In this document: one piece after another, positions 10,902 through 41,268 of the stretch
How the letters are laid out: every line of letters begins with the position of its first letter
Numbering within the stretch: the first letter of the stretch is position 1
NCBI GenBank assembly: GCA_001664005.1
Contig: CP016093.1
Location: forward strand, 1,123,001-1,187,000
Length of the DNA: 64,000 bases
From: Rhizobiales bacterium NRL2
GTDB lineage: Bacteria; Pseudomonadota; Alphaproteobacteria; Minwuiales; Minwuiaceae
Direction: 5' to 3'
Position numbers and translations under genes: made by a program
Notes under the pieces: generated by a model
The model's database searches: none
What the model was told of the DNA's origin: nothing
What the model saw: the letters and a program-made list of their open reading frames with translations, nothing else

Positions 10902-14493
<3,592 letters not shown>

Positions 14494-14503
14494 CGCCGCC
14501 GGC

Positions 14504-15616: not shown

Positions 15617-15765
15617 CGGTAATGTCTTGCCAGAACTGGTTCGAACGGGAACCTGACGGCAAGCAGCCGCCAGAGCAGTTCTCTATAGCACGCAGGCGTC
15701 ACGATTCGCCAACGATTCCATGGATTTTACGGGCCTGCGGCGGGGCCGGTCCGCAGCCTGCCCGC

Positions 15766-17226
15766 TCAGTTGGAAAGTGCGGCCTCCAGCAGGCGCACGT
15801 CCTCGGCCAGGCTGGAGTCGCTCTGGATGAGTTCCTCGATCTTCCGCACCCCGTGCAACACCGTCGTATGATCGCGGTTGCCGAAGCGCCGGCCGATGTC
15901 CGGCAGGCTGCGCGTGGTCAGCTTCTTGGAGAGATACATGGCGACCTGACGCGGCCGGGCGACGGCGCGAGCGCGGCGGCTGGACGACATCTCGGTGACC
16001 TTGATGGAGAAGTGCTCGGCCACCTTCTTCTGGATTTCGTCGATGGTGATCTTGCGCGAATTGGCGCGCAGCAGATCGGCCAGCACGTCCCGGGCGAGGT
16101 CCAGCGTGATCTCCCGGCCCATCAACTCGTGATGGGCGATGACCCGCTTCAGTGCGCCTTCCAGTTCCCGCACGTTGGAGGTGATCCTGTGCGCCAGGAA
16201 CTGCAGCACATCCTCGGGAACATGGACGCCGGGGTTCATCGCCATCTTCTGCTCCAGGATGCCGACGCGGAGCTCGAAATCGGTGGGATGGATGTCGGCC
16301 ACCAGCCCCCAGCCCAGCCGGGAACGCACGCGCTCCTCCATGCCGTCCAGGTCGGAGGGCGAACGGTCGGCGGAGATCACGACCTGGTGCTTGCGGTCCA
16401 CCAGCTCGTTGAAGGTGTGGAAGAACTCTTCCTGGGTGGAGTTCTTGTCGGTGAAGAACTGCAGGTCGTCGATCATCAGCACGTCGACGGAGCGGAACTG
16501 CTCCTTGAACGCCATGGTGTCCTTGAAGCGGACCGCGCGGATGAACTGGTACATGAACTTCTCGGCCGACAGGTACATCACCCGGCGCCCGGGTTTGGCG
16601 CGCACGATGTGCCAGGCGATGGCCTGCATCAGATGGGTCTTGCCCAGGCCGACGCCGGAATAGAGGAACAGCGGGTTGAAGGCCACGTCGTCGGAATCCG
16701 CGACTCGCCGCGCCGCGGCGTAGGCCAGTTCATTGGCCTTGCCGACGACGAAGTTGTCGAAGGTCAGGGCGGCGTCCAGAAGGCCGGTCAGGCCCTCGAC
16801 GGCCGTGTCTTCGCGTGCCGGTTCGGCCGGCCGCGCGGTGGTGGCCACAGCCTCGGCTTCGTCGCCACCGGCCTCTCCGGCGGCCAGGCCCTCCTTCGCC
16901 GTCCCGCGGCCAGCAGCTTCCAGGCCGACATGGATGGCGATCTCGCGGATGTGCGGCACATCGCGCTGGAATTCGCGCAGCAACAACTGTTGGTAGTTGT
17001 TCCTCACCCAATCTTTCAAGAACGCGGTCGAAGCGAGCAGTACGGCGCGGTCATCGTGAAGCGCCACGGGGCGCAGCGGCGCCAGCCAGCTCTTGAAGGC
17101 TGCGTCCCCGACAGCCTTGCGAACGCGCCCGCCGACCCGCTGCCAAAGCAGATGCAGCGCTTCGCTGTCGTCCACGGCCGGCGCGTCGTCGATGTCCTCG
17201 GAAATCCTGTCCACCTCGAAAGTCAA
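15766..17226 (-). CDS. dnaA: Chromosomal replication initiator protein DnaA
   Basis: A 486-residue AAA+ initiator. Domain I (residues about 23-105) contains LWQRVGGRVRKAVGDAAFKSWLAPLRPV. A poorly conserved linker rich in Ala, Glu and Gly follows (about 106-150). The AAA+ core has Walker A GVGLGKTH (191-198) and Walker B VLMIDDLQF. Domain IV carries the DnaA signature RFGNRDHTTVLHGVRKIEEL. It binds DnaA boxes and melts the replication origin. No cluster of consensus boxes was seen on either side, so the origin may be elsewhere. Confidence 0.97.
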   Translation of the reverse strand: MTFEVDRISEDIDDAPAVDDSEALHLLWQRVGGRVRKAVGDAAFKSWLAPLRPVALHDDRAVLLASTAFLKDWVRNNYQQLLLREFQRDVPHIREIAIHVGLEAAGRGTAKEGLAAGEAGGDEAEAVATTARPAEPAREDTAVEGLTGLLDAALTFDNFVVGKANELAYAAARRVADSDDVAFNPLFLYSGVGLGKTHLMQAIAWHIVRAKPGRRVMYLSAEKFMYQFIRAVRFKDTMAFKEQFRSVDVLMIDDLQFFTDKNSTQEEFFHTFNELVDRKHQVVISADRSPSDLDGMEERVRSRLGWGLVADIHPTDFELRVGILEQKMAMNPGVHVPEDVLQFLAHRITSNVRELEGALKRVIAHHELMGREITLDLARDVLADLLRANSRKITIDEIQKKVAEHFSIKVTEMSSSRRARAVARPRQVAMYLSKKLTTRSLPDIGRRFGNRDHTTVLHGVRKIEELIQSDSSLAEDVRLLEAALSN

Positions 17227-17590
17227 CTTCGCGCTCCCGTGTTGTCGAATACTGCGGCTGGCGAGGCCGAAAACGCAAAAAGGCCTGTTCAGACCGATGT
17301 ACAGTCTGTTGACGCAACGCTGATTTTGACATCAGGACTCGAGAAGGCAGACGGTCTGTGAGGCTCGTCCGAATTTATCCGGATCTGTTCTTGTCTCGGC
17401 CCACTCCGTCATCTCCCGGTCTGTCCCGCGAAGCGAACTTTAGATCGGATGGCGGGCGGCTTTCAAGAGGCCTTGGTTGAGAGAAAACTCCGCAATTAGG
17501 AAGAAATCCCGCTTCTCGGCGCTCTGCGGTTGGAATCATTGGCGATTCGATTTTCGCCGCTCGGCAAAAAAAATGTCACTGAAATGAAAT
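17227..17590. other. dnaA-rpsT intergenic region; no clear oriC
   Basis: This is the upstream region of dnaA and the downstream region of rpsT. I looked for DnaA boxes (TTATCCACA and variants). I found only one weak form (TTATCCGGA at 17375-17383, two mismatches) and no clustered boxes or long AT-rich unwinding element, apart from an A8 run near 17566-17573. It probably holds the dnaA promoter, but no strong -35/-10 pair stands out. Confidence 0.5.
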
Positions 17591-17615
17591 GTGCCGCGGA
17601 CGGGGTCCGCGGCAC
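17591..17615 (-). terminator. Terminator-like hairpin after rpsT
   Basis: A perfect 11-bp stem with a 3-base loop (GTGCCGCGGAC / GTCCGCGGCAC). It lies 32 bp beyond the rpsT stop. Downstream on the minus strand comes a T-rich stretch including TTTTTTTT, though not directly next to the stem. It probably separates rpsT from dnaA. Confidence 0.7.
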
Positions 17616-17647
17616 ACCAGAAACGGGAATTTCTTCCGGAAGATCGA

Positions 17648-17917
17648 TCAGGCGGAAGCCAGGGCCCTGGTCCGCGCGTTGAGGCGGGAGACCTTCCGGG
17701 CGGCGGCGTTGCGCTTGATGACGCCCTTCTGCGCGGCCTTGTCCAGTTCGCTCTGCGCGATCTGGAGGGCCTTGTTCGCGGCCTCGGCGTCGCCGGCGGC
17801 CAGTGCGACCTCGACCCGCTTGACATAGGTCCGCATCCGGCTGCGCCGGGCCACGTTGCGCGCGGTGCGCGTCGCCGTGCGGCGGATGTCTTTCTCGGAT
17901 GATTTGATGTTTGCCAT
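17648..17917 (-). CDS. rpsT: 30S ribosomal protein S20
   Basis: An 89-residue basic helical protein starting MANIKSSEKDIRRTATRTAR, the typical S20 opening. NALQIAQSELDKAAQKGVIKRN and RKVSRLNARTRALA follow the family to the end. An ATG four codons upstream is rejected because S20 begins MANI. A strong promoter lies 42-70 bp upstream (17959-17987) and a hairpin follows the gene. It lies beside dnaA, an arrangement also found in other proteobacteria. Confidence 0.97.
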   Translation of the reverse strand: MANIKSSEKDIRRTATRTARNVARRSRMRTYVKRVEVALAAGDAEAANKALQIAQSELDKAAQKGVIKRNAAARKVSRLNARTRALASA

Positions 17918-17958
17918 GTCCAGTCCCAAAGGCGGATTCAGTCAATTCGAAGGCCGGG

Positions 17959-18001: not shown

Positions 18002-19762
18002 CTACTCCGCCGCCTGCGGATGCGCGCGCCGCCGCGCCGTGGCCGCCATGTCCACGTCCCGGCCGGAGGGATCGAGCACGACGCCGAAGAGCTCCCGTGC
18101 CTGGTCCGATGTGTAGTAGCCAAGGCGGATGTCGGCCAGCACTTTCGCGGCGGGACGCCGGAAGGGGTCGCCATAGCCGCCGCCGCCGGGCGTGCCGACC
18201 TCGATCCTGTCGCCCGCGGCAACCCGGATGTCCTGGTCCTTCGAGAGATGCTCGGGCACGTAGGAGCGGCCGCCGCGATGGACGGTGACGCTGTTGGGCA
18301 TTCCGTCGCAGCCGCCCAGAACCCCCTGCGGACCGAAGCGGCCGTGGTCCATGACGAAGGAGGCGGTGGCCTCCCCGCGACGCACTTCGACGGTGTATTT
18401 CAGGCCGAAGCCGCCGCGCTTCTCCCCGGCGCCGCCCGAACCTTCCCGCAGGCCGTATTCGTGGTACAGCACGGGATAGTACTGCTCCATGACCTCGATC
18501 GGCGCCGTCTTGGAGATGCCGATGGTCGAGCAGCCGTTGGTCAGTCCGTCATGGTCGGCATTACCGCCATAGCCGCCGCCGGAAATCTGGTACATGACGT
18601 AGGAGCGTCCCCGGGCCGGATCATGCCCGCCCAGGGCGAAGTTGCCGCTCGATCCCGCGGGGGCAGCCGTGACCCTGTCGGGCAGGGCCTGCACCAGCGC
18701 GGCGAAGACCGCTTCGGCGATGCGCTGGCTGACCTCCGCCGCGCAGCCCGATACCGGCCGCGGATAGCGCGCGTAGAGAAAGGTGCCCTCCGGATCCTCG
18801 ATCTCCAGGGGCTCGAAGGCGCCGGCGTTGATCGGCACGTCGGGAAAGATGTGGCGCATGGCCAGATAGACCGAGGACCGGGTGGTGGCGATCACCGAGT
18901 TCATCGGCCCCTGGCAGGGCGGGCTGGAGCCGGCGAAGCTGAAGCGCAGGGCGCCGTCCCGCTTCTCGACCGTCAGCTTGATGACCAGCGGTTCGTCGAC
19001 CACGCCATCGGAATCGACGAAGGCCTCGGCCCGGTAGACCCCTTCGGGTATCTCGGCGATCTTGGCGCGCATCTGCTGGGCGCCGCGGCGCTTCAGTTCG
19101 GCGATCGCCCGCTTCACCGTCTCGTCTCCGAATCGGTCGAGCAGTTCGTTCAGCCGCGCCCGTCCCACCAGCAGGGCGGCCTCCTGGGCGCGGATGTCGC
19201 CGATCCGCTGGTCGGCGATGCGGATGTTGGAGCAGATGATGGCGTAGATCTCCGGATCCATCTCGCCGTGCTTGAACAGCTTCACCGGCGGCAGACGCAG
19301 TCCTTCCTGCTCCACCGCGGTGGCGTTGGCCGAAAAGCCGCCCGGCACCGCGCCGCCGATGTCGGGCCAGTGGCCGGTGTTCGACAGCCAGCAGAAGATC
19401 TCGCCATTGCGGTAGAAGGGCATGGCGAAGCGCACGTCCATCAGGTGCGTGCCGCCCAGATAGGGATCGTTGACGATGTAGATGTCGCCGTCTTCGGGCG
19501 GCCGGGCGCGGCCGTCGCGGATGAACTCGATCAGGTTCCGCGTCGATTCCTGCATGGTGCCGACGAAGACCGGCAGGCCCATCAGCCCCTGGGCGATCAG
19601 TTCGCCGTTGTCGGCGGCGTAGATACCGTCCGAGCGGTCGTTGGCCTCCGCGATCACCGGTGAGAAGGCGGAGCGGGAGAAGCTCATGTCCATCTCGTCG
19701 CAGACCTGCTGCAGGCCGTTCTGGATGACGCTGAGCGTGATGGGGTCGAGTGGCTCGGTCAT
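18002..19762 (-). CDS. hyuB: Hydantoinase B / acetone carboxylase alpha-type subunit
   Basis: A 586-residue HyuB-family protein. Conserved segments include DPITLSVIQNGLQQVCDEMDMSF, FSPVIAEANDRSDGIY, DGDIYIVNDPYLGGTHLMD, LSNTGHWPDIGGAVPGGFS, and a C-terminal GGFGLKYTVEVRRGE followed by GTPGGGGYGDPFRR. HyuA/HyuB pairs hydrolyse cyclic amides (N-methylhydantoin, 5-oxoproline) with ATP. The start at 19762 overlaps the hyuA stop by four bases (ATGA), so the subunits are coupled. It is the last gene of the operon; rpsT follows with its own promoter. The true substrate may not be hydantoin. Confidence 0.88.
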   Translation of the reverse strand: MTEPLDPITLSVIQNGLQQVCDEMDMSFSRSAFSPVIAEANDRSDGIYAADNGELIAQGLMGLPVFVGTMQESTRNLIEFIRDGRARPPEDGDIYIVNDPYLGGTHLMDVRFAMPFYRNGEIFCWLSNTGHWPDIGGAVPGGFSANATAVEQEGLRLPPVKLFKHGEMDPEIYAIICSNIRIADQRIGDIRAQEAALLVGRARLNELLDRFGDETVKRAIAELKRRGAQQMRAKIAEIPEGVYRAEAFVDSDGVVDEPLVIKLTVEKRDGALRFSFAGSSPPCQGPMNSVIATTRSSVYLAMRHIFPDVPINAGAFEPLEIEDPEGTFLYARYPRPVSGCAAEVSQRIAEAVFAALVQALPDRVTAAPAGSSGNFALGGHDPARGRSYVMYQISGGGYGGNADHDGLTNGCSTIGISKTAPIEVMEQYYPVLYHEYGLREGSGGAGEKRGGFGLKYTVEVRRGEATASFVMDHGRFGPQGVLGGCDGMPNSVTVHRGGRSYVPEHLSKDQDIRVAAGDRIEVGTPGGGGYGDPFRRPAAKVLADIRLGYYTSDQARELFGVVLDPSGRDVDMAATARRRAHPQAAE

Positions 19763-21822
19763 GTGTGGACCTCGATGATCAGGTTGCCGTCCGCGTCGCC
19801 CGTGGCCCGGGCGCCGGGATCGATGACGACGGTTGTGTCGATCTGCTCGATGATCGCCGGGCCGTCGATCGTCACGTCCGCCGGCAGGTGGTCGCGCCAG
19901 TAGACCGGAGTCTCGGCCCATGCGCCGTCGAAGAAGATGCGCCGGCTGCCGCTCTGTGCCGCCGCCAGACTCCCGCGCCGGCCGGCCGGGTCGATCAGAC
20001 TGGCGAGATCGATCTCGCCGCGGCGGCCGATGACGGACGTGTTGAGGTTCACCAGGTTCGCCCGAATCTCGGGCAGCGCGACGTGGAAGCGCTCGTAATA
20101 GGCGCGCTCGAAGCGCGCCTGCAGGTCTTCCCGGGTCACTTCGGGGCCGTCCAGCGGTACCGACAGGATGTGGGTCTGGCCGATGAACTGCATGTCCGCG
20201 GAATGGCTGATGCGGACATCGTCGACCTCGACCGGCTCCTCGGCGACCAGACGGCGGCCGGTCTCGATCTGGCGGGCCAGGATAGCGCGGCAGTCGGCGA
20301 TGTCGACGCCGTCCAGCGGGTGGTTCACCGTGTTGACGAAATCGTGGCGGACGTCGGCGACGACGCAGCCCAGCGCGTTGGTGATGCCGGGCCGCGGCGG
20401 CACCAGCACGCGCGGGATTCCGAGCTCGCGCGCGATCGAGACTGCGTGCAGTGGCCCGCCGCCGCCGAAGGCCAGCAGGGCGAAATCGCGCGGGTCGTGG
20501 CCTCTGGCGATGGAGACCATGCGCACGGCGCCTGCCATCTTCATGTTGGCGATGCGCAGCACCGCCGCCGCCGCTTCGGCCGCGTCCAGCCCCAGCGGTG
20601 CGCCGATGACCGCGGCGAAGACCTTCGCGATGTCCTCCGCGGTGGCGCCCCCGCCGCCGGAGAGCAGATGTGCGGGATTGATGCGGCCGAGCACGAAATG
20701 GGCGTCGGAGATCGTCGGCTGCCGTCCGCCGCGGCCATAGCAGATCGGCCCCGGATCGGCGCCGGCGCTCTCGGGCCCGACCTGCAGCAGCCCGGCCTCG
20801 TCGATCCGGGCGATGGAGCCGCCGCCCGAGCCGATGGTCTGCACGTCGACCATGGGCACGTGGATCGGCAGGGCGTACTCGATCTCCAGTTCGTGGCTCA
20901 CCGGCGGGGCGGTGTCGCGGACCAGCGCCACGTCCGTCGAGGTGCCGCCCATGTCGTAGGTGATCAGGTTGCGGAAGCCGGCGCGCCGTCCCGTGTAGGC
21001 CGCGGCCATGACGCCCGACGCCGGCCCCGACATCACCGTCTTGGCCGCTTCCCGGGCCACGGTGCGGGCGGAGACCATGCCGCCATTGCCGTTCATGACC
21101 AGCAGATCGCGGCGGAAGCCTCTGGATTTCAGCTCGCTCTGCAGCCGGTCGACATAGCGGTGCAGGATCGGCTGCACGGCTGCGTTCACGGCCGCCGTGA
21201 CGCCGCGCTCGTATTCGCGGAATTCCGACAGCAGCGAATGGCCCGTGGTGATGTGGTCAGTGGGCCAGATCCCGGCGGCGATCTCCGCGGCGCGGCGCTC
21301 GTGAGCCGGGTTGGCGTAGGCGTGCAGGAAGTGGATCACCAGCGAGGTGCAGCCCTTCGCCTTCAGCGCCTCGACCGCTTCGCGCACCTCGTTCTCGTCC
21401 AGCGGGGTGACGACATTGCCGTCGGCGTCGGAGCGCTCGGTCACTTCCAGGCGCAGGTCGCGCGGGATGACGGGCCGGAAGACGCCGGTCATGCCATAGG
21501 GCTGCGGCCGGGTGCGCCGCCCGACCTCGAGCACGTCCCGGAAGCCGCGCGTGGTGATCATGCCCGTGGGCGCCAGCTTGCGCTCCAGGATGGCGTTGGT
21601 CGTCGTCGTGGTGCCGTGAACGATCAGGTCGACCGAAGGCAGATCCGCCTCGACGGCCTCCAGCGCGGCGATGACGCCACCCGCCTGGTTCTCCGGCGTG
21701 GTCGGCACCTTGGCGACGCGGACGCGGCCCCGCCCCCGGTCGAACAGCAGGATGTCGGTGAAGGTGCCGCCGACATCGACGCCGACAATGATCTCGCCCT
21801 TGTTCTCGCCGGCATCGCCCAT
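19759..21822 (-). CDS. hyuA: Hydantoinase A / 5-oxoprolinase-type ATP-dependent subunit
   Basis: A 687-residue HyuA-family ATPase. The N-terminal phosphate-binding motif GVDVGGTFTDILLFD is followed by VHGTTTTTNAILERK, RTRPQPYGM, SLLSEFREYERG, and the actin-like core MNGNGGMVSARTV, ITYDMGGTSTDVALV, TIGSGGGSIARID, GADPGPICYGRGG. It couples ATP hydrolysis to ring opening of a cyclic amide by HyuB. It starts four bases after the marR stop and overlaps hyuB by four. In this operon it could open the reduced lactam ring produced by the reductase upstream (inference). Confidence 0.9.
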   Translation of the reverse strand: MGDAGENKGEIIVGVDVGGTFTDILLFDRGRGRVRVAKVPTTPENQAGGVIAALEAVEADLPSVDLIVHGTTTTTNAILERKLAPTGMITTRGFRDVLEVGRRTRPQPYGMTGVFRPVIPRDLRLEVTERSDADGNVVTPLDENEVREAVEALKAKGCTSLVIHFLHAYANPAHERRAAEIAAGIWPTDHITTGHSLLSEFREYERGVTAAVNAAVQPILHRYVDRLQSELKSRGFRRDLLVMNGNGGMVSARTVAREAAKTVMSGPASGVMAAAYTGRRAGFRNLITYDMGGTSTDVALVRDTAPPVSHELEIEYALPIHVPMVDVQTIGSGGGSIARIDEAGLLQVGPESAGADPGPICYGRGGRQPTISDAHFVLGRINPAHLLSGGGGATAEDIAKVFAAVIGAPLGLDAAEAAAAVLRIANMKMAGAVRMVSIARGHDPRDFALLAFGGGGPLHAVSIARELGIPRVLVPPRPGITNALGCVVADVRHDFVNTVNHPLDGVDIADCRAILARQIETGRRLVAEEPVEVDDVRISHSADMQFIGQTHILSVPLDGPEVTREDLQARFERAYYERFHVALPEIRANLVNLNTSVIGRRGEIDLASLIDPAGRRGSLAAAQSGSRRIFFDGAWAETPVYWRDHLPADVTIDGPAIIEQIDTTVVIDPGARATGDADGNLIIEVHT

Positions 21823-21826
21823 CGTG

Positions 21827-22261
21827 TCAGCCCAGCTTCGCCAGCAGGTCGAGCAGGCGCCGCTGTTCGGCTGCGTTGAGCGGCCCCAGCGTCTCCTCGG
21901 TGATGATGCGCCCGGCCGCGATGGCCTCTGCAGCAACGCGCTGGCCTTCCGGCGTCAGCGCCACCAGCAGCCGCCGGCCGTCCGCGGGGTCGCGCCGTGT
22001 CTCCGCGAAGCCCCGCTCGCGCAGCCGGTCGATCACGCCCTTGATGGTCGCCGCGTCCATCGCCGTGCGTCGGCCCAGCAGGTTCTGGGAGGCGGGACCC
22101 AGTTCGCGCAGCTTCGCCATGGCCGCGAACTGCGTCGGCGTCAGTCCCGCGACCATGCGTTCGGCGAAGATGGCCGTGTGGCGCTGGGTCGCCTGACGCA
22201 GCCGGAATCCGACCTGGTCGTCCAGGCGGTAGTCGTCGGCCAGGGCCATGGTCTCGCTCAT
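21827..22261 (-). CDS. MarR-family transcriptional regulator
   Basis: A 144-residue winged-helix protein. TPTQFAAMAKLRELGPASQNLLGRRTAMDAATIKGVIDRLRERGF is the recognition region and RRDPADGRRLLVALTPEGQ the wing, followed by the C-terminal dimer helix. MarR proteins usually repress nearby catabolic genes and release DNA on binding an aromatic ligand. The gene lies inside the operon: its ATG overlaps the oxygenase stop by four bases (22258-22261), and hyuA begins four bases after its stop. Self-regulation through the inverted repeat at 29339-29352 is an inference. Confidence 0.88.
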   Translation of the reverse strand: MSETMALADDYRLDDQVGFRLRQATQRHTAIFAERMVAGLTPTQFAAMAKLRELGPASQNLLGRRTAMDAATIKGVIDRLRERGFAETRRDPADGRRLLVALTPEGQRVAAEAIAAGRIITEETLGPLNAAEQRRLLDLLAKLG

Positions 22262-23298
22262 TCCGCGGCCTCCGCGCTGTTCTGTTCCGCCGCCAGCATC
22301 TCGCCGACGATGCGGCGGTAGTGGTTGGAGCCGGCGTCGAGTGCCACGCGGACCGGCGCCCGGTCATATGGCTTCAACTCGTTGCGCTGGATCGCCTCCA
22401 GGATCGCCTTGTCCTCGGCGAAGGCGACGCGCAGCAGGTCGGATATCTTCTCGCCGGCCGCCGGCTCGTCCGTCGCGGTATTCCTGAGGTGCATCCAGCG
22501 GTCGATGGTCGTGGTCGCGTCGACCGGTGTCATGAAATGCAGAGCGAAGATCTGCACGCCCTCGCCGCGTCGGTCCTCGGTCAGTTCCAGGGTCGCGTCG
22601 GCGCTGCCGAAGTCGATCACGGCGATGCAGGGCGCGTGCAGGTAGTAATAATGCCACCGGTCGACATTGCCTTCGAAGCCGCCCCAGGCCTGGAAGAAGC
22701 CGATGGGCGGGCCGTTCCGGATCCAGCGCGAGATCTCGACCACCTCGCCCCGGCGGCGCGCCTTGAGCGGTACGTCCTCGCTCGCCGCGTTGCCGAGCGT
22801 CGTCGGGTGAACGAAGCTGACATGGGCCGGGTCGCAGAGATTGTCGGCGACGTTGAGATAGTTCGAGGCAATGCGGAGCGCGTCGCCCTGGACTGCCGCC
22901 CAGCCGGGATCGGAGAGCTGCGGCAGATCGAAGATGTCGGCGGGGTCGGCCAGCGCGGCGTCGCCCATCCAGATCCAGACGATGCCGTGACGCTCATGCG
23001 TCGGGAAGCGCCGGACCCAGGCCTGGGGCGGGATCGAGCGTTGACCGGGCACGCGGACGCAAGCTCCGTCCCGTCCGAACGTGAGGCCGTGATAGCCGCA
23101 CTGGATGGTGTCGCCGATCCGCTTGCCCATGGAGAGCGGCAGGGCGCGATGGGGGCAGCGGTCCTCGAAGGCGACGACCTCGCCATCCGCGGCGCGATAG
23201 AGCACGAGATCCTGTTCCAGGATCGTCGCTGTGGTGAAGTTCTCGCCGAATTCCGACGACCACCCGGCGACGTACCAGTGATTGTGGACATAGGTCAT
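22258..23298 (-). CDS. Rieske non-heme iron oxygenase, alpha subunit (VanA/Pdm type)
   Basis: A 346-residue aromatic-ring-hydroxylating or demethylating oxygenase. Rieske ligands are C48-x-H50 (CPHRALPLS) and C67-x2-H70 (CGYHGLTFG). The mononuclear iron motif is D152NLCDPAHVSFVH164, including the bridging Asp and facial His residues. Length and layout fit the VanA-like group. No ferredoxin reductase partner is in the operon, so electrons must come from elsewhere. The start at MTYVHNHWYVAGW overlaps the UPF0280 stop by four bases. The upstream extension (MGCCGCKQEESP) is rejected. Confidence 0.9.
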   Translation of the reverse strand: MTYVHNHWYVAGWSSEFGENFTTATILEQDLVLYRAADGEVVAFEDRCPHRALPLSMGKRIGDTIQCGYHGLTFGRDGACVRVPGQRSIPPQAWVRRFPTHERHGIVWIWMGDAALADPADIFDLPQLSDPGWAAVQGDALRIASNYLNVADNLCDPAHVSFVHPTTLGNAASEDVPLKARRRGEVVEISRWIRNGPPIGFFQAWGGFEGNVDRWHYYYLHAPCIAVIDFGSADATLELTEDRRGEGVQIFALHFMTPVDATTTIDRWMHLRNTATDEPAAGEKISDLLRVAFAEDKAILEAIQRNELKPYDRAPVRVALDAGSNHYRRIVGEMLAAEQNSAEAAE

Positions 23299-24281
23299 CG
23301 GGCTTTCCTCTTGTTTGCACCCGCAACAGCCCATTTCGCGTCATGCCCGCCTTGTGCGGGCATCCGGAATCTGAACCCGGGCTTGTCGCGAAAGTTCCGG
23401 GCAGTCGTCAGGCGCTTGACCGGACCCCCGCACAGGGCGGAGGTGGCGGCTTCGGTGTGCACCGAATGCCCGCGCAGCCATAGAGCCGCGGAACGGATCA
23501 CCCCCCGCCGGACCATGACCTCGGCGACGTCTCGGCCCGCCGCCAGCGCGGCTTCGATCTCGCGGCCTGACAGCCGGCCCACCTCCACGACCACGGGCCG
23601 TTCGCCGAGATCGCTGTCCGGGTCGATCCCGCGGGCGGGTGCGCGTTCGACCGCCGGGTGATCGGGCAGGTCGACTTCGTTGGCGATCAGGGTCGCCGCC
23701 GCATCCGCCGCCGCCGCACTCGGTGCCAGCACCGTCACGGAATCGGCGATGCCGAGGCTCAGGCTGCGCCCGTGGCGGCCGGAGGTGGCGATGCCGCCCA
23801 CGCCGTCCGCGGCCGTCAGCCGCGCCGTGCCCACCTGCCGGCCGTCGCGCGGGTCGGCGACGAGGCCGACGTCATAGATCTCGCCCGCCGCCAGCCAGAG
23901 CGCGATGTCGCCGCCATTGTTCACGTGAATGCGCCTGAGCGCCGGCGCAGCGTCCCGCATGACGGCCAGCACCTCGTCGGCAACCGAACCGGCGACCGCC
24001 GCCATGGGCGTGACGAAGACGTTTCCGTGCGGCGCGACCGCTTCGGCCATGCGCCGCGCAACCGGCCCCGCCGGCCAGGCGCCGTCTTCGAGCGGACGGC
24101 GCAGGACGGTCAGTTCCTCGACCAGTCCGGGAAGGATCGTCTCGAAACGGTCGCGTGCGGCGCGGTAGGCGTTGCGGACATCCGCCGTCTCCCCGTCCGC
24201 CCCGATGACGAGGTCGATGGGGCCGTGCTGCAGGTGCAGGCGGCGGCCGTCGGGCAGCATGGCGGCCTGGGGTCCGTTCAT
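23295..24281 (-). CDS. UPF0280 family protein (ApbE-like fold)
   Basis: A 328-residue protein of the UPF0280 family, recognised by LPDGRRLHLQHGPIDLVI, the HGNVFVTPMAAVAGSVADEVL segment, RIHVNNGGDIALWLA, GIATSGRHGRSLSLGIADSVTVLA and the C-terminal HSVHTEAATS. These ApbE-like motifs (V-NNGGDI, GIATSG) suggest flavin-related chemistry, but the function is not established. It is coupled by 4-bp overlaps both to the reductase upstream (24278-24281) and to the Rieske gene downstream (23295-23298), so it probably serves the reductase, perhaps as a flavin-insertion factor (inference). Confidence 0.82.
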   Translation of the reverse strand: MNGPQAAMLPDGRRLHLQHGPIDLVIGADGETADVRNAYRAARDRFETILPGLVEELTVLRRPLEDGAWPAGPVARRMAEAVAPHGNVFVTPMAAVAGSVADEVLAVMRDAAPALRRIHVNNGGDIALWLAAGEIYDVGLVADPRDGRQVGTARLTAADGVGGIATSGRHGRSLSLGIADSVTVLAPSAAAADAAATLIANEVDLPDHPAVERAPARGIDPDSDLGERPVVVEVGRLSGREIEAALAAGRDVAEVMVRRGVIRSAALWLRGHSVHTEAATSALCGGPVKRLTTARNFRDKPGFRFRMPAQGGHDAKWAVAGANKRKAR

Positions 24282-25714
24282 CGGCGGCGCCATTCGACGC
24301 GGTAGCCGCCGCGCCCGACCACCTCGTCCAGGCGTTTGACCTCTCCGCCATGGCCGCCGAGCTCCAGGTAGTCGTCCAGGCGCAGCGTGAACTCGATCGG
24401 TGCGACGATGGCCGGCGTCGGGACGTAGCCGAAGGAGTTCGCCGGCATTGCCGTCACGTCGACCATCACCGTGATGCCGCCGCCGGGCCAGCGATAGGCC
24501 GGCGCGCCGCCGCAGGTGACCCGCGTCAGCGCCTGCTGCACCGAGCGGGTGAGCCGCACGGGGTTCTCGGTGACGCCCGCGCGCAGCGAGCCGCCGGCGC
24601 CGCCCATGAACAGCACCGAGCAGAGCGCCGGCTCGCAGTTCTCCTCGATCAGTTCGACCGAGTGGCGGAGGCTTTCGGGCAGGTCGTGTTCGACGGGCTT
24701 CAGGTCCTCGTCGAGGGTGAAATAGGCCCATTGCTCGCCAGTGGTTGAAACCATGAGCATGGATTGACCCGGCTTCGCGAACTTCGGATTGAAGCCCTCG
24801 ATGATGGTCAACGGGTCGGTGACGTCCGTGCCGCCCCAGCCGGTGCCGGGCTCGGCCACCTGAAAATAGCGGCCGGGCGTCGACTTGCGGCCGCGGATGC
24901 GGATCCCCGTGTCTTCCCAGCCCAGCACCTTGCCGGCCTGGTGCTCGGAGATGACGCCGGTGATGTGGTCGTCGACCACGACCACTTCGTCCACCAGGCC
25001 GTGCCACTGCTTCGCGAACATGCCGATGGTGGCGGAGCCGCAGCCGACGCGCATGCGCTCCTCGGCGTGGCCGTTGACCACGGGCGGCCGGCCCGCCTGC
25101 ACCGTGACCTCGGCGCCGCCGTCGACGGTCATGTCGACCGCTTCGCCATTGCAGAGATCCATCAGCGTCCGGCAGGTGACGCGGCCTTCCATCTTGCCGC
25201 CGCCGGTCAGATGATGGACGCCGCCCAGCGAGAACATCTGGGAGCCGTACTCGCCGGTCGTGACATGGCCGACGGGCTCGCCGTCGACGCGGACAAGGTT
25301 CCGCTCCGGTCCCAGCCAGCGGTCGGTATCGATCTTCACCTTGGCGCCGCAATAGCTGAAGATTCCTTCGGTCACGACGGTGACCATGTCGACGCCCTCG
25401 GTCTCCTTCGCGACGATGAAGGGCGCGGGCTTGTAGTCCGGATAGGTCGTGCCCGCGCCGATGGCCGTGATCGTGGCGTCTTCCGTGCGGATGATCTCGC
25501 CGTCCCAGTCCTCGGCCCCGTCCAGGAAGGGCACGAACCGTCCGCCCTGGGCCTCGACATTGGAAACGATGGTCAGCGGATCGAGGCGGATCAGTTCCCC
25601 GTCCCTCACCGCATAGCGGTCGCAGGCGCCGGACTTGCCCTCGGCGATGAAACACATGACCGGACAGGCGTCGCAGCGGATCTTGCCGTCCTTCTTCACG
25701 ACCTGATCGTTCAT
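24278..25714 (-). CDS. 6-hydroxynicotinate reductase-like Fe-S protein
   Basis: A 478-residue protein. The N-terminal cluster C14-x2-C17-x3-C21-x9-C31 (KIRCDACPVMCFIAEGKSGACDRY) is followed by a large domain with SYCGAKVKIDTDRW, TTGEYGSQMFSLGGVHHLTGG, VGCGSATIGMFAKQW and a GGTDVTDPL segment. This matches proteins annotated as 6-hydroxynicotinate reductase, which partially reduce the pyridone ring in nicotinate fermentation. The start ATG at 25714 has GGGAGCG upstream. It lies 22 bp after the molybdenum dehydrogenase gene, the enzyme class that would supply its hydroxylated substrate. The real substrate is unproven. Confidence 0.72.
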   Translation of the reverse strand: MNDQVVKKDGKIRCDACPVMCFIAEGKSGACDRYAVRDGELIRLDPLTIVSNVEAQGGRFVPFLDGAEDWDGEIIRTEDATITAIGAGTTYPDYKPAPFIVAKETEGVDMVTVVTEGIFSYCGAKVKIDTDRWLGPERNLVRVDGEPVGHVTTGEYGSQMFSLGGVHHLTGGGKMEGRVTCRTLMDLCNGEAVDMTVDGGAEVTVQAGRPPVVNGHAEERMRVGCGSATIGMFAKQWHGLVDEVVVVDDHITGVISEHQAGKVLGWEDTGIRIRGRKSTPGRYFQVAEPGTGWGGTDVTDPLTIIEGFNPKFAKPGQSMLMVSTTGEQWAYFTLDEDLKPVEHDLPESLRHSVELIEENCEPALCSVLFMGGAGGSLRAGVTENPVRLTRSVQQALTRVTCGGAPAYRWPGGGITVMVDVTAMPANSFGYVPTPAIVAPIEFTLRLDDYLELGGHGGEVKRLDEVVGRGGYRVEWRRR

Positions 25715-25736
25715 CGTTGCGCTCCCGCCCGTTCCG

Positions 25737-28493
25737 TCATTTCCGTGCCTCACGGATGGCGGCGAGGACGCGCGGCGGCGTCGCGGGCGTGCGGCGGATG
25801 ACGGCCCCCGTGGCGTCGCGGATGGCGTTCAGGATCGCCGGCGCGGTCGGGATCAGCACGTGCTCGCCCAGCCCCTTGGCGCCGTAGGGACCTTCCGGGT
25901 CGGGCTCCTCGATGATGATGGATTTCACCGGGGGCATGTCGCCGATGGTGGGGATCAGATAGTCGTGCAGGTTCTCCGTGACGCCCGGCACGTATTCCTC
26001 CATCAGCGCCATGCCGAGACCCTGGGCGATGCCGCCCTCGATCTGCCCCTCCACCAGCACCGGATTGATCGCCCGGCCGACATCGTGTGCGGCGGTGATC
26101 CGGTCGGCCTTCACCGTGCCGAGAGTTGTGTCGACCGTCAGTTCCACGAGTTGCGCGCCATATCCGTAGACCGCGTAGGGGCTGCCCTGGCCGTTCTCGT
26201 CCAGCGGCGTGGTCGGCGGGTCGTAGCTTTCCTCGACCAGCATGACGAAGCCGGCCGCGTCGGCGGGCAGGGCCGCGAGGTCGAGATCGTGATCGACCTT
26301 CTTTTCGCGCAGGACGATGTGCCCGTCCTCGACGCGCAGCGCCGCTGCCTCGGAGACATTGGCGTGGCGCAGGATCGCCTGGCGCAGCGCCGCGCCCGCT
26401 GCCATGGCGGCCCGGCCGGAAACGAAGGTCTGGCGCGATGCCGAGGTCTTCCCGGCGTCCGGCGTCACCGAAGTGTCGCCGACGACGATCTGCACATTCC
26501 CGACCGGCAGGCCCAGGGCGTCAGCAAAGATTTGCGCGATGACCGTCGTGGCGCCCTGGCCGATGTCCACCGCGCCCTGATGCAGCACCACGGCGCCGTC
26601 GCGGGTGACGCCGGCCTTGATGGTCGAGGGGTTGGGCAGGGCGGTGTTGCCGCAGCCGTACCAGCAGGTGCCGAGCCCGACCCCGCGGCGGAAGGGCGCA
26701 GCCGCATGTTCGGTGTTGAAAGCCGCCGCCTCCCGCTTCGCCCGCGCCCAGTCGTCGCGCAGGGCCTCCAGGCAGGGGCCTATGCCGACCCCGCTTTCGA
26801 AGCGCTGACCGGTCACCGTCGGGTCGCCGTTCGCGAGCGCATTCCGGATGCGGAATTCCAGCCGGTCGATTCCGCAGGCGTCGGCCAGACGGTCGTAGAG
26901 GCATTCCTGTGCGATTGCGGCCTGCGGCACGCCGAAGCCGCGGAAGGCGCCGCCCACGGGGTTGTTGGTATGCACTGCCACTGTCCGCGCGCGGTAGTTG
27001 GGTGTGAGATAGGGCCCGGAGGCGTGGACGGGCACGCGGTTCGCCACCGTCGGCCCCCACGAGGCATAGGCGCCGGTATCGAAGACGCCGTCGAAGCCGA
27101 GCCCGGTGATCCGGCCGTCCGCGTCGGCGCCGATCGCCACCTCCATCTCGGCGGGGTGCCGCTTGGTCGTGGAGGCCATGGACTCGGGTCGGGTGTAGGC
27201 GATGCGCGCCGGCCGGCCCAGCCGCAGGGCGGCAAGGGCCAGGATCGGCTGCACGGAAATGTCCAGCTTCGAACCGAAGCCGCCGCCGACGCCGGTCGGC
27301 ACGATGATCACCTGTTCCTCGGGCAGTCCGAGGATCGCCGCAACCGCCTCGCGGTCCATGTGCGGCGCCTGGGTGCAGGCGTGGATGACGACCTTCTCGC
27401 CATCCATCCGGGCGAACCCGGCCTCCGGCTCGATATAGGCATGCTCGACGAAGCCGGTGCGGAAGCTGTCCCGGACGACATGGGCGGCGCCGGCGAGGGC
27501 GCTCTCCACGTCGCCGCGCTCCACGAAGCCCTTGACGAGGATGTTGCCGGCGCGGTCTCGATGGACCTTCGCGGCGTTTGTGGCCCGGGCGGAGGCCGGA
27601 TCGAGCAGGGGTTCGAGTTCTTCCCACTCGACGGGGAAATCGGCCGGATCCAGCGCCTGCACGGCGTCGCGCTCGCCGACGACGGCGGCGACGGCTTCGC
27701 CCCGGAAGCGCGCCTGCCCGTTCGTCGCGAAAACCGGCTGGTCGGCGAAGGGCGGGATCACGCCGAAGCGGTTCTCGCCCGGAATGTCGTCCGCCGTGAA
27801 AACCCGCCTCAGTCCCGGGTTGGCCAGCAGGAAGCCGTCCAGATCGCCGAATCGGAAGCGCGCGCGGTGGTGTGGCGAGCGGATGATGCGGATCAGCAGG
27901 GCGTCGCCGGGGGCCGCGTCATCGCCGAACTGTTCGCGGCCCAGCACCTTGGGGGCGCCGTCGAGACGCGGGATGGCGCGGCCGACGGAGGAGCCGTCGT
28001 GCCGGACGGCCGGCGGCGCGGCGTCGAGGACGGCGTCGATGATCTTGCGGTAGCCGGTGCAACGGCAGAGCACGCCGCCCAGCGCGTCCATCGCTTCGGC
28101 CTCGGTGGGCGACGGGTTGGCTCGGAGCAGCGCCGCCGCGCTCATCAGCATGCCCGGCGTGCAGATGCCGCACTGGGCCGCCCCATGGTCGAGAAAGGCG
28201 CGCTGCAACCGGTTCATGCCGCCGTCGCCGGCGAGGCCCTCGACCGTCTCCACCCGGCGGCCGTCGACCTGTCCCAGCGCGGTCATGCAGGCGCAGACGG
28301 GCTCGCCGTCGAGCAGCACGGTGCAAGCGCCGCAGTCGCCGGCGTCGCAGCCGACCTTGGTGCCCGTCAGGCCCAGCCGTTCGCGCAGGGCCTCGGTCAG
28401 GCGGGTGGCGGGATGGTCCGGCAGTTCCACTGCGCGGCCGTTGACCCGGAACCGCGTGACCTCGCTGGTATCGACGGTGCTGGCGACGCTCAT
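25737..28493 (-). CDS. Xanthine-dehydrogenase-family hydroxylase, fused [2Fe-2S] and molybdopterin domains
   Basis: A 918-residue fusion. Residues 1-165 form the small subunit with two [2Fe-2S] sites: C49, C54, C57, C69 and C108, C111, C143, C145 (GCDAGDCGACTVLL; CGICTPGM; CRCTGY). Residues 180-918 are the molybdopterin subunit, with VGGGFGSKLDISVQ, GGAFRGFGVPQAA, IGQGATTVIAQI and the active-site Glu in GPYGAKGLGEHVL. Such enzymes hydroxylate N-heterocycles (nicotinate, purines, quinoline) or oxidise aldehydes with water. Separate subunits are more common. It overlaps the FAD-subunit stop by four bases. Confidence 0.9.
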   Translation of the reverse strand: MSVASTVDTSEVTRFRVNGRAVELPDHPATRLTEALRERLGLTGTKVGCDAGDCGACTVLLDGEPVCACMTALGQVDGRRVETVEGLAGDGGMNRLQRAFLDHGAAQCGICTPGMLMSAAALLRANPSPTEAEAMDALGGVLCRCTGYRKIIDAVLDAAPPAVRHDGSSVGRAIPRLDGAPKVLGREQFGDDAAPGDALLIRIIRSPHHRARFRFGDLDGFLLANPGLRRVFTADDIPGENRFGVIPPFADQPVFATNGQARFRGEAVAAVVGERDAVQALDPADFPVEWEELEPLLDPASARATNAAKVHRDRAGNILVKGFVERGDVESALAGAAHVVRDSFRTGFVEHAYIEPEAGFARMDGEKVVIHACTQAPHMDREAVAAILGLPEEQVIIVPTGVGGGFGSKLDISVQPILALAALRLGRPARIAYTRPESMASTTKRHPAEMEVAIGADADGRITGLGFDGVFDTGAYASWGPTVANRVPVHASGPYLTPNYRARTVAVHTNNPVGGAFRGFGVPQAAIAQECLYDRLADACGIDRLEFRIRNALANGDPTVTGQRFESGVGIGPCLEALRDDWARAKREAAAFNTEHAAAPFRRGVGLGTCWYGCGNTALPNPSTIKAGVTRDGAVVLHQGAVDIGQGATTVIAQIFADALGLPVGNVQIVVGDTSVTPDAGKTSASRQTFVSGRAAMAAGAALRQAILRHANVSEAAALRVEDGHIVLREKKVDHDLDLAALPADAAGFVMLVEESYDPPTTPLDENGQGSPYAVYGYGAQLVELTVDTTLGTVKADRITAAHDVGRAINPVLVEGQIEGGIAQGLGMALMEEYVPGVTENLHDYLIPTIGDMPPVKSIIIEEPDPEGPYGAKGLGEHVLIPTAPAILNAIRDATGAVIRRTPATPPRVLAAIREARK

Positions 28494-29320
28494 GCCGAGC
28501 CTCCCAGGCAGGCGACAGCACGGCGCACCGCTTCTGCTGCGGCAATCCGGCGATAGGGGGCGTCGGCGCGGACGTCGTCGATCGGGCTCAACGCTTCGAG
28601 ATGCACCGGCGTCGGCCAGTCGCCCGGCAGCGTTCTGACCAGCATGTCGCGCTCCAGCGCCGGCAGGCGCTGCGCGACCTCGGAGCAGGCGCCGACCGAG
28701 ATCGCGGCATCGGTCAGATCATCGCCGTTGCGCGCCAGCCGCGCCGCGACCATGACGATGGAGATGACCAGATACCTGCGCGCGCCGAGCTTGAGAAACG
28801 TCGAGCGGCCTGTCGCCGCCTGCCGGGGCACGTGGACGGCGACCAGCAGTTCATCGGCGCGGCGCGCGGTACGGCGGTTGCCGTGAATGAATTCGGCCAG
28901 CGGCATGCGGCGGCGCCCGGCCGCCGAAGCCAGTTCCACCTCGGCGTCGAGGATCAGCAGCGGCGGCACGCCGTCGGCGGCGGGGGAGGCGTTGCAGAGA
29001 TTGCCGGCGACGGTGCCGGCGTTCTGGACCTGCACCGAGCCCACCTCGCGCGCGGCGAGCTTCAGGGCGTCGAAGGCCGGCGGCAGGTCTGCGCGCAGAA
29101 TGTCGGTCCAGGTGGTCAGCGCGCCGATGCGGAAGCCTTCCGCCGTCGTCTCGATGCCGCGCAGGCCGCGGATCGCCGTGACGTCCATGACCGATTCCGA
29201 GACCGCTCGGCCGACGCGCGCGGGGTAGAAGTCGGTGCCGCCCGCCAGGACCGTCCAGACGCCGCCTGACAGGCGCTCCAGCGCTTCCTCCAGTCCGGCG
29301 GGTCTGACGAATTCCGGCAT
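28490..29320 (-). CDS. FAD-binding (CoxM-type) subunit of molybdenum hydroxylase
   Basis: A 276-residue medium subunit. It opens MPEFVRPAGLEEALERL and has the FAD-binding VLAGGTDFYP motif; AGTVAGNLCNASPAADGVPPLL follows the second flavin motif (here GN-CNASPA). It passes electrons from the [2Fe-2S] centres of the fused partner to an acceptor. First gene of the operon: an upstream TTG frame (from 29350) runs into the operator-like repeat, so the ATG at 29320 is preferred. Its stop overlaps the start of the dehydrogenase gene (28490-28493). Confidence 0.9.
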   Translation of the reverse strand: MPEFVRPAGLEEALERLSGGVWTVLAGGTDFYPARVGRAVSESVMDVTAIRGLRGIETTAEGFRIGALTTWTDILRADLPPAFDALKLAAREVGSVQVQNAGTVAGNLCNASPAADGVPPLLILDAEVELASAAGRRRMPLAEFIHGNRRTARRADELLVAVHVPRQAATGRSTFLKLGARRYLVISIVMVAARLARNGDDLTDAAISVGACSEVAQRLPALERDMLVRTLPGDWPTPVHLEALSPIDDVRADAPYRRIAAAEAVRRAVACLGGSA

Positions 29321-29338
29321 CCGGCGGGTCCCAAATTC

Positions 29339-29352
29339 GTTTGTGTACAAAC
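29339..29352. promoter_or_regulatory. Operator-like inverted repeat before the catabolic operon
   Basis: GTTTGT-GT-ACAAAC is a perfect 6-2-6 inverted repeat (TTGTnnACAA core), 18 bp upstream of the first ATG. Just upstream on the minus strand is a possible -10 (TAGCAT, 29359-29354) with a weak TTGCGT 18 bp before it, so the repeat would cover the transcription start. TTGTnnACAA palindromes are typical targets of GntR/FCD and some MarR repressors. The internal MarR protein is the obvious candidate (inference). Confidence 0.55.
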
Positions 29353-29408: not shown

Positions 29409-30338
29409 TCAGACGGACTGTTCGCCGTAATAGAGGGTCATGGCGTGCTTCGCTTCGGCGAAGAACAGCCAGCGTTCGACCATCAGACCGGCGATCGTCA
29501 GCAACGCCGCCAGCCAGACCGCGGCATGCGGCAGACCGGCCAGCACGCCGCCGATGATCGCCCCGGGCAGGACGCCGCCCACCGCGACGGCAAGGATACG
29601 CAGCTTCATGGCGTGGCGGCGCGCGACGCGGAAGCCCATTTCCGACGTCAGCCAGTTTTCGGTGACGTGGGGCCGTTCGAACAGGCGAACGTCGTCATGG
29701 TCCCCGAGGCCCGTGGCCGAGCCCACCGTCGCCGTGGGTTCCAGACGGTCGACGCGGGACCAGATCACGGCCTTGAAGTACCAGGCCACGAACAGGAAGA
29801 AGAGAGCCACGCCATAGGCCATGTTCGACGACGGTCCGGCGGCGGCGAGTGCGATCAGACCGCCGGAAGTTGCGGCGAAGATCAGGAACATCAGGCTGGT
29901 CGGCTGTGTCGACCAGGCCGGCACCGCCTTCAGCGACTGGTAGATCATGCCGGTGGCGCGGACCGTGGCGAAGCAGAGCAGGGCAACGGCGATGCCCGAA
30001 ATGCGCCACGCGCCGAAGCCTTCATGAGCCTGGATCGGCTGCAGCAGGTGGCCGACGATCACGATGAAGGCCAGCACCATGGTGGCGAGGGCGAAGACGC
30101 CTTCCCGGCTCAGCCAGCTCGTCCGCCACTGGCTGAGCGAATAGCGCGCGCGCCAGGGCGACTGCAGGTGCAGCACCGAGCCGCCCAGCCCGATGCCGGC
30201 CAGCACGAAACCCAGGATCATCGTGATGTCGAAGCCCAGTACGCCCAGGTAACTCACCAGCAGCGTCGCGGCCGCCATGGCTCCGAAGCCGGCGCCCGAC
30301 AGCACGGTGAAAACGATGATGGAGAAGGCAGGGTACAT
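29409..30338 (-). CDS. soeC: Sulfite dehydrogenase membrane subunit SoeC (DmsC family)
   Basis: A 309-residue polytopic protein with about eight membrane segments, starting MYPAFSIIVFTVLSGAGFG as DmsC/SoeC anchors do. GLGGSVLHLQSPWRARYSLSQWRTSWLSREG is the conserved quinol-site region of the DmsC family. It would anchor the SoeAB catalytic pair on the cytoplasmic side and pass sulfite electrons to quinone. It follows soeB by 57 bp on the same strand. Alternative: the anchor of another DMSO-reductase-type enzyme. Confidence 0.78.
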   Translation of the reverse strand: MYPAFSIIVFTVLSGAGFGAMAAATLLVSYLGVLGFDITMILGFVLAGIGLGGSVLHLQSPWRARYSLSQWRTSWLSREGVFALATMVLAFIVIVGHLLQPIQAHEGFGAWRISGIAVALLCFATVRATGMIYQSLKAVPAWSTQPTSLMFLIFAATSGGLIALAAAGPSSNMAYGVALFFLFVAWYFKAVIWSRVDRLEPTATVGSATGLGDHDDVRLFERPHVTENWLTSEMGFRVARRHAMKLRILAVAVGGVLPGAIIGGVLAGLPHAAVWLAALLTIAGLMVERWLFFAEAKHAMTLYYGEQSV

Positions 30339-30395
30339 GTCACGCAGTCCGATACAGTCTCAGGCGGCAAGCTTTGCCCCGGAAACACATGGATG

Positions 30396-38331: not shown

Positions 38332-38470
38332 AGCGCCCGTTCAGAGGACGGTGGTGTGGTGCCGGCAATCGCGGGCTCGCAGAGATCGTCGTTGCGCTCC
38401 AGCAAGCTTCGTAGGGGGTTCCCATCCGCCTGTCACGTGCTGATACAGCGGCGCGGCGACTGGACGTGAC

Positions 38471-40557: not shown

Positions 40558-40616
40558 GTCGCAGTCCGCCTGTTTCAGAAGTCCCGGGGGCGGTGGGCGT
40601 CACTATGCGGTATACC

Positions 40617-41247: not shown

Positions 41248-41268
41248 GCGATTGATCCGGGTGGAATG

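Follow-up and report, generated by a model that had tools for sequence, protein, structure and literature searches.

Which ring compound is degraded, and by what route, when a bacterial operon joins a molybdenum (Mo) hydroxylase and a 6-hydroxynicotinate reductase (Hnr) homologue to a hydantoinase-type enzyme, HyuAB? This question is raised by a locus of Rhizobiales bacterium NRL2, found in a stretch of 64,000 nucleotides (hereafter the window; contig CP016093.1 of GenBank assembly GCA_001664005.1, positions 1,123,001 to 1,187,000), the source genome being a single contig of 4,700,671 bases. Eight minus-strand genes spanning positions 18002–29320 of the window encode the flavin adenine dinucleotide (FAD) subunit and the fused iron–sulphur/Mo subunit of the hydroxylase, Hnr, a UPF0280 protein, a Rieske oxygenase, a MarR-family regulator, HyuA and HyuB. 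We read them, with a probability of roughly 0.7, as a 6-hydroxynicotinate-responsive operon for the catabolism of nicotinate, or of a precursor of it, by the reductive route. The gene set is probably a variant of the proteobacterial Hnr route and not a new ring pathway, since Mo-hydroxylase and Hnr are orthologous to those of that route, the MarR keeps three of the four BpsR residues that bind 6-hydroxynicotinate and a palindrome is common to nicAB/hnr clusters. The direct observations concern which genes are present, which of them co-occur or exclude each other, the palindrome and one predicted fold.

Three steps would make up the pathway. Judging from homology, the FAD subunit and the fused subunit would hydroxylate nicotinate at C6; Hnr, as the annotation of its family suggests, would reduce 6-hydroxynicotinate to 1,4,5,6-tetrahydro-6-oxonicotinate (THON), probably with electrons from ferredoxin; and HyuAB, in view of the mutual exclusion described below, would open the THON lactam at the expense of ATP, yielding an enamine whose hydrolysis gives 2-formylglutarate and ammonia. 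The preliminary description of the locus, made from its sequence alone, had proposed this order of hydroxylation, reduction and lactam opening, and the present analysis supports it.

HyuAB in the probable place of enamidase

The nicotinate systems of Eubacterium barkeri and of Azorhizobium/Bradyrhizobiaceae resemble the operon in their Mo-hydroxylase, Hnr and order of chemistry; the window differs in having HyuAB, the fused subunit and the Rieske gene, and in that neither enamidase nor AA_synth was found. An enamidase-type proteobacterial cluster is already known from passages of PMC3511419, and the chemistry of THON and enamidase is taken as given in passages of PMC9304392. As enamidase query an amidohydrolase of Sulfitobacter S190, encoded near hnr, was used; it is homologous to the solved enamidase 2vun over its full length (E 6.7e-105). 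No homologue of it was found in the genome of the window at E ≤ 1e-60, and for this reason the operon is classed as a variant and not as the canonical THON pathway.

Hnr was present in 68 of 385 alphaproteobacterial genomes (five hits of 18.5–22.6 bits were dropped). Enamidase at ≥550 bits was found in 30 of the 385, 29 of them with Hnr, and HyuA at ≥800 bits in 41, 37 of them with Hnr, so that the 68 Hnr genomes comprise 29 with enamidase only, 37 with HyuA only, none with both and two with neither. The last two are 70% (G226) and 86% (G313) complete, and of their contigs one ends 149 bases after UPF0280 and the other inside it. Both thresholds were set after the scores had been seen (the next enamidase score was 304 bits, the next HyuA score 788 bits in a genome without Hnr); the zero overlap holds for any HyuA cut between 645 and 800 bits. 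With the cut set lower than 645 bits, at least six enamidase genomes show HyuA paralogues of 45–48% among matches down to E 1e-180, and two HyuAB genomes (G104 and G289) have remote enamidase paralogues of 37–38%. The hypergeometric P for zero overlap, which ignores relatedness, is 3e-17. Because of this genome-wide mutual exclusion HyuAB is read as performing the step of enamidase, which it would replace; the place of HyuAB where enamidase was expected, pointed out in the preliminary description, is thereby supported.

The exchange seems to have occurred repeatedly. On an Hnr tree of 64 of the 68 rows, from which two fragments and the two genomes without a call were left out, proteins from enamidase-type and HyuAB-type genomes are intermixed, and the state changes eight times (7–8 over bootstrap trees), at least three changes being forced by well supported branches. 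Eight independent pairs were counted on all branches and three on supported branches (sign test 0.25). Both types are found even in the window's own genus, with HyuAB in G000 and enamidase in G197 and G290. Among 86 named or plasmid loci, nine carry HyuA at ≥66%, none of these with enamidase in the fetched flank, and one further locus (L039) has enamidase plus HyuAB paralogues of 39–45%. Plasmids of Sagittula (L267) and Pseudosulfitobacter (L268) encode HyuA 67% and 66% identical to that of the window, with no enamidase in the stretch, and a plasmid of Sulfitobacter pontiacus (L266) encodes an enamidase at 84% to the query, with no HyuA in the stretch.

The nearest NCBIfam models of HyuA and HyuB are those of the caprolactamase subunits CapA (519.8 bits) and CapB (326.4 bits), each under a cutoff of 1000 bits. 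The likeness to CapAB and acetophenone carboxylase, both of the Hydantoinase A/B family, extends over nearly the full length; the window pair differs in scoring well under the equivalog cutoffs and in its expected substrate, a pyridone-derived lactam. Of the new route suggested for the locus at the outset, one substituted step stands, HyuAB for enamidase, but that step is already widespread, being seen in 37 of the 68 sampled Hnr genomes. The swap itself and the tie between UPF0280 and Hnr look new: among open-licence full texts no paper was found that pairs 6-hydroxynicotinate with a hydantoinase, and UPF0280 was not mentioned; COG2122 appeared in four.

The proposed operator and the MarR regulator

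A perfect palindrome, GTTTGTNNACAAAC (GTTTGT-GT-ACAAAC, also given as GTTTGTGTACAAAC), precedes the operon and occurs as one exact copy in the whole 4.70-Mb genome. As it overlies the TTG at 29350, the start of the FAD gene was moved to the ATG at 29320, which is most likely the true start. The motif was surveyed in 154 Hnr neighbourhoods totalling 2.83 Mb (86 named or plasmid loci and 68 further regions, window included), which come from overlapping samplings and are partly related, not independent. Each of the 35 copies of the strict motif is found upstream of a pathway gene at a distance of no more than 300 bp, in stretches that make up 10% of the bases surveyed, and three Markov resamplings gave no strict motif at all. 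A relaxed motif gave 71 matches, 63 of them near pathway genes in 54 of the 154 loci, where 1–3 were expected. The sites stand before nicA/hnr (nicAB/hnr) in Bradyrhizobium-type clusters and before the FAD gene or an importer in others; in L092 a relaxed copy is also found 72 bp before HyuA.

The MarR protein of the window matches chains 6pcp and 6pco of BpsR with E-values of 3.5e-25 and 6.4e-25, its best match being 2nnn (1e-40). BpsR is a MarR repressor of Bordetella with 6-hydroxynicotinate as ligand, according to passages of PMC6837509. The homology covers most of the length and three of the four residues that bind this ligand, the equivalents of Tyr15, Arg26 and His32, are kept. Across Hnr neighbourhoods, 101 MarR rows were compared (the window counted twice): all have the Tyr and the Arg, 82 have the second His and 14 the first. 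The systems differ in that BpsR, in the same passages of PMC6837509, controls the aerobic nic cluster, whereas the window MarR sits in an Hnr operon, where MarR, palindrome and HyuAB occur together. The protein would bind the palindrome and be released by 6-hydroxynicotinate. The preliminary description had also considered a different ring; this was rejected as the main explanation, since Hnr proteins of both types are intermixed on the tree, the palindrome is common to nicAB-hnr-enamidase clusters, as are MarR and Hnr, and three of four pocket residues are kept.

UPF0280 and its association with Hnr

The name of Hnr rests on the annotation of near full-length plasmid relatives, 60.7–72.3% identical and in many cases labelled 6-hydroxynicotinate reductase. 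No Pfam or NCBIfam model matched Hnr at E ≤ 1e-3, the only exception to the agreement of the protein names first given with the Pfam/NCBIfam domain calls. Of the named organisms among the retrieved loci, Minwuia thermotolerans has the most similar Hnr (81%). Cysteines C14, C17, C21 and C31 near the N-terminus are invariant in the alignment, as are the Ser/Thr residues S227, T153 and S323-T325, with T170 nearly so, and some relatives have a ferredoxin-NADP reductase gene beside hnr. An AlphaFold2 model of Hnr (predicted local distance difference test, pLDDT, 76.7) found no fold match in the PDB by Foldseek (best E 0.25). Residues 124–209 bear a weak likeness to the C-terminal barrel of the glycine cleavage T-protein (fold Z 4.7; PF08669 matched by 37 of 46 members at E ≤ 0.1, best 3.2e-4). 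DUF39 was considered as a possible distant relative of Hnr; Hnr had no HcyBio (PF01837, DUF39) match at E ≤ 10 and the phylum sample held no UPF0280 without Hnr, no profile comparison with DUF39 sequences being made.

UPF0280 of the window scores 373.4 bits against model NF003322 (cutoff 290). At >30 bits the family occurs in exactly the same 68 of 385 alphaproteobacterial genomes as Hnr, six hits of 19.7–29.5 bits having been dropped. In a sample of the phylum, UPF0280 and Hnr again share the same 14 of 195 genomes (five of the 14 also in the alphaproteobacterial sample; one 22-bit Hnr hit dropped), and on plasmids UPF0280 was found in 27 records and Hnr in 26. On the extra plasmid, that of Hydrogenophaga BPS33, UPF0280 is immediately preceded by an apparent remnant of the hnr 3'-end (E 2.5e-5), with IS1071 alongside. 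On this plasmid (L265; NZ_CP044550.1) tblastn found four places for UPF0280, two of them in repeat units that lie between IS1071 copies and also hold the apparent hnr 3' remnant, MarR, a different Rieske gene and a gene for a VanB-type reductase. Of the 80 named genome loci, two gave no UPF0280, and in one of these (L047) the contig ends. The strictness of the tie is weakened by the other, L057, a local exception with hnr and no UPF0280 in the fetched flank, and by three of the dropped hits (G143, G323 and G099), which span much of the profile, so that remote UPF0280 relatives without Hnr may exist.

What UPF0280 might do for Hnr is suggested by its predicted fold. With its AlphaFold model (pLDDT 87.7), all Foldseek ranks from 3 to 41, following DVU1097 (2o34, a Desulfovibrio protein), are of ApbE/FmnB/Ftp type; the Z score is 20.1 to 2o34 and 14.8–17.0 to ApbE/Ftp/FmnB over 204–222 residues, the next fold reaching 8.2. 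UPF0280 is thus predicted to fold like ApbE flavin transferases. By hhalign the family aligned to nine of 18 ApbE rows found, picked by motif, with a probability of 95.3% (E 2.1e-8), the motifs GGD, ATSG and AD-x-x-x-T being kept; an earlier alignment to three ApbE rows gave 81.6%. AD-x-x-x-T is the Mg-binding motif of ApbE, and in 45 UPF0280 rows D193 is invariant and T197 at least 90% conserved. No Pfam ApbE match was found for the window protein at E ≤ 10, though of the 45 proteins in the alignment 22 do match at E ≤ 0.1, the lowest value being 2.2e-5. Against flavin transfer stands the deletion of the HxxDP loop of ApbE in the UPF0280 alignment; its His is presumably the one changed in 6nxj, an H257G mutant. 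Because this loop is missing, UPF0280 was not classed as ApbE and flavin transfer by it is uncertain.

UPF0280 belongs, as we take it, to COG2122. In passages of PMC5764234, COG2122 is needed together with DUF39 for homocysteine synthesis (fitness correlation r = 0.98) and is distantly related to ApbE, the homology seemingly stopping short of the flavin-binding region; a persulfide role proposed by others is also mentioned there. The DUF39/COG2122 pathway of sulfate reducers and methanogens, as described in these passages, is alike in that a protein of this group is tied to one partner, and differs in the partner, which here is Hnr; no DUF39 was found in the genome of the window. Among 14 control genomes NF003322 matched two methanogens, both also with DUF39, and the Synechococcus elongatus control has DUF39 without UPF0280.

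The simplest common reading is that UPF0280 matures Hnr, most simply by providing its covalent flavin. A competing reading, which we consider a serious possibility at somewhat less than even odds, is that UPF0280 is not a flavin transferase and modifies Hnr otherwise, for example by persulfide chemistry or metal-site maturation, as others have proposed for COG2122/DUF39. It draws on the missing loop and on the persulfide proposal and truncated homology in the passages of PMC5764234 cited above, and is opposed by the ApbE/FmnB/Ftp type of each Foldseek match at ranks 3–41 and by the three aligned motifs, limited as these are to nine motif-picked rows of 18. Hnr of E. barkeri, moreover, reportedly carries a covalent flavin. 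A wider generalization is offered tentatively: UPF0280/COG2122 proteins may be client-specific maturation factors, with the ApbE fold minus the HxxDP loop, each of which provides a single unusual client (Hnr in nicotinate degraders and, by extension, DUF39 in homocysteine synthesis) with a covalent flavin or some analogous group, while HyuAB may be an ATP-driven enamidase that replaced the metal enzyme several times.

Alternative readings, accessory genes and surroundings

Several observations count against a nicotinate operon in which HyuAB opens THON. A relaxed palindrome near a pathway gene is lacking in 100 of the 154 neighbourhoods. Among these are the three closest relatives (L043, L154 and L155), and a MarR homologue and HyuAB were likewise not found in their stretches; because of the missing palindrome in these relatives our confidence was slightly lowered. 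In the window MarR one BpsR ligand residue, His23, is replaced by Phe. The best single PDB chain for the Mo subunit is the aldehyde oxidoreductase 1sij (411.5 bits), the three chains of nicotinate dehydrogenase 3hrd scoring 258.5, 219.9 and 142.5 bits. Linkage to Hnr at a distance of up to 15 kb is seen for only 22 of the 37 HyuA genes and 18 of the 29 enamidase genes, the remaining 15 and 11 being farther away or on other contigs; in G197 the distance of enamidase from Hnr is 369 kb, and G082 has enamidase without Hnr. HyuA orthologues at ≥800 bits occur in four Hnr-less genomes of one family (G114, G217, G307 and G383), adjoining, in the two examined, other Mo proteins of about 30% identity. 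In each genome, scoring was limited to the three (HyuA) or five (enamidase) best first-look candidates. AA_synth (PF06684) was not found in the window genome, and the control genomes gave no match either. Finally, enamidase opens THON without ATP, so that no need for the ATP spent by HyuAB is apparent.

As orthologues occur in the four Hnr-less genomes, HyuAB is not exclusive to THON, and it may serve further heterocycle pathways. In the two examined loci (L224 and L225, of G114 and G217) the HyuAB orthologues are 61–65% identical and stand beside the Mo-hydroxylases just mentioned.

An alternative keeps the regulon but gives HyuAB a later step or a lactam that is further reduced, such as 6-oxopiperidine-3-carboxylate, the HyuAB type then marking a different lower pathway. 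The closest relative, CapAB, opens a saturated lactam, and the opening of a cyclic enamide by enamidase needs no ATP. We nevertheless regard this as unlikely, as HyuAB and enamidase exclude each other in all 66 genomes that received a call, which most simply means the same step, and Hnr does not split into two substrate clades.

It appears improbable that nicotinate is incidental and that the substrate of the operon is some other pyridine or pyridone acid, perhaps a pyridine carboxylate bearing a methyl or methoxy group. Such a role would suit the Rieske subfamily tied to hnr in a subset of genomes, the best PDB match of the Mo subunit, which is not nicotinate dehydrogenase, and the one divergent residue of four in the MarR pocket, but palindrome, MarR, Hnr and UPF0280 are all common to nicAB-containing clusters, and a related cluster is present in a strain degrading nicotinate and 6-hydroxynicotinate (in passages of PMC3511419). 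A chance stack of catabolic genes is hardly credible: the operon lacks AA_synth and the ATP-binding cassette (ABC) importer typical of relatives, and 88 bp separate the FAD ATG from a DmsABC-type set upstream of it, yet the genes are joined by five ATGA overlaps behind the single genome-wide palindrome copy, and the same set with additions recurs on the Sagittula and Pseudosulfitobacter plasmids (HyuBA-Mo-FAD plus Fpr-Hnr-UPF0280-AA_synth x2-Rieske-ABC-MarR).

Within the nicotinate reading, the Rieske oxygenase would be an accessory. It belongs to an Hnr-linked subfamily (≥56% identity) found in 13 of the 154 neighbourhoods, window included, seven more having relatives of 39–47%; among plasmids, all 11 records with a Rieske protein of ≥58% identity are among the 26 with Hnr, the next level being about 42%. 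The preliminary description had placed the oxygenase among the later steps, which is not borne out: the subfamily accompanies enamidase (G335, G287, G194, G290, G197 and plasmid L266) as well as HyuAB (the window, L267 and L268), and in several relatives its gene adjoins an ABC importer. A feeder step fits better for these reasons, and most likely, though with low confidence, the enzyme would demethylate a methylated precursor that feeds the pathway, for instance an N-methylated nicotinate; solved Rieske relatives include dicamba demethylase and methylxanthine demethylases. With marine bacteria among the relatives, a homarine (N-methylpicolinate) pathway was considered as a further possibility. 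In the Minwuia thermotolerans metagenome-assembled genome (L043, 12326–14045) the Rieske protein is encoded in two pieces, residues 1–153 and 146–335, about 0.7 kb apart with no N bases between, which points to a gene disrupted or interrupted in this close relative, and in L045 the gene is cut by the contig end. AA_synth, in one or two copies, is a common neighbour of hnr-UPF0280 in relatives (L037–L042, L266–L268 and G regions); a related proteobacterial cluster has an ABC transporter and two unknown proteins (in passages of PMC3511419).

The features of the operon are collected in Table 1. The coordinates bear out all eight genes, the five 4-base ATGA overlaps and both gaps of the preliminary description: overlaps at 28490–28493 (FAD/Mo), 24278–24281 (Hnr/UPF0280), 23295–23298 (UPF0280/Rieske), 22258–22261 (Rieske/MarR) and 19759–19762 (HyuA/HyuB), and gaps of 22 bp from Mo to Hnr and 4 bp from MarR to HyuA. 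The overlaps and the palindrome, unique in the genome, support one co-regulated catabolic operon. Its gene order is far beyond chance, because neighbourhoods from many alphaproteobacterial families share the core. A scan for terminators and promoters gave nothing useful at the operon ends, and no Rfam family reached its gathering threshold in the window.

Table 1. Genes and proposed operator of the HyuAB-type Hnr operon (positions in the window)
Feature	Position	Strand	Evidence or remark
FAD subunit of Mo-hydroxylase (xanthine dehydrogenase family)	28490..29320	-	PF00941 4.5e-39, PF03450 3.7e-6
Fused 2Fe-2S/molybdopterin subunit, proposed nicotinate 6-hydroxylase	25737..28493	-	MoCoBD_1/2, Fer2_2
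Hnr, 6-hydroxynicotinate reductase family	24278..25714	-	60.7-72.3% identity to plasmid proteins
UPF0280 (DVU1097-like), proposed Hnr maturation factor	23295..24281	-	NCBIfam NF003322
VanA/DdmC-type Rieske oxygenase, proposed feeder demethylase	22258..23298	-	Rieske + VanA_C above gathering scores
MarR-family repressor, BpsR-related	21827..22261	-	PF01047
HyuA, ATP-dependent lactamase subunit, proposed THON opener	19759..21822	-	PF05378, PF01968, PF19278 above gathering scores
HyuB, hydrolase partner of HyuA	18002..19762	-	PF02538 2.9e-159, above gathering score
Palindromic operator (proposed MarR/NicR-type site, operon start)	29339..29352	.	18 bp upstream of FAD ATG

Directly upstream on the minus strand, beyond the palindrome relative to the operon, lie the DmsC-, DmsB- and molybdopterin-oxidoreductase-type genes of the DmsABC-type set (29409–33970), with an ATGA overlap between the last two; none were seen in the fetched Hnr neighbourhoods of relatives. 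On the other side the adjoining minus-strand genes at 10902–17929 read, from translations only and with no family search, as gyrB, recF, dnaN, dnaA and rpsT, so that the operon is probably near the replication origin. Farther away, a probable mobile island at 37099–42479 holds a tyrosine integrase, a ParA-like ATPase with lowered GC content at third codon positions (GC3) and IS3-type transposase-like genes. A histone-deacetylase-family hydrolase is found beside a divergent DAO-type FAD oxidoreductase at 46771–49123, and co-directional plus-strand genes at 52032–62453 (a cytochrome c554-like protein, a cyclic-nucleotide (cNMP)-binding + 4Fe-4S protein, a 502-aa open reading frame without Pfam match and an NAD/2Fe-2S reductase) form a possible unusual electron-transfer cluster.

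For the family of Hnr pathways as a whole, the standard ring-opening enzyme was not found in 39 of 68 sampled Hnr alphaproteobacteria (two of the 39 being incomplete), and an ATP-dependent candidate is present in 37. The palindrome is usable for defining the regulon. For UPF0280/COG2122, whose role was still open in 2018 according to passages of PMC5764234, the strict genomic partner offers a testable function.

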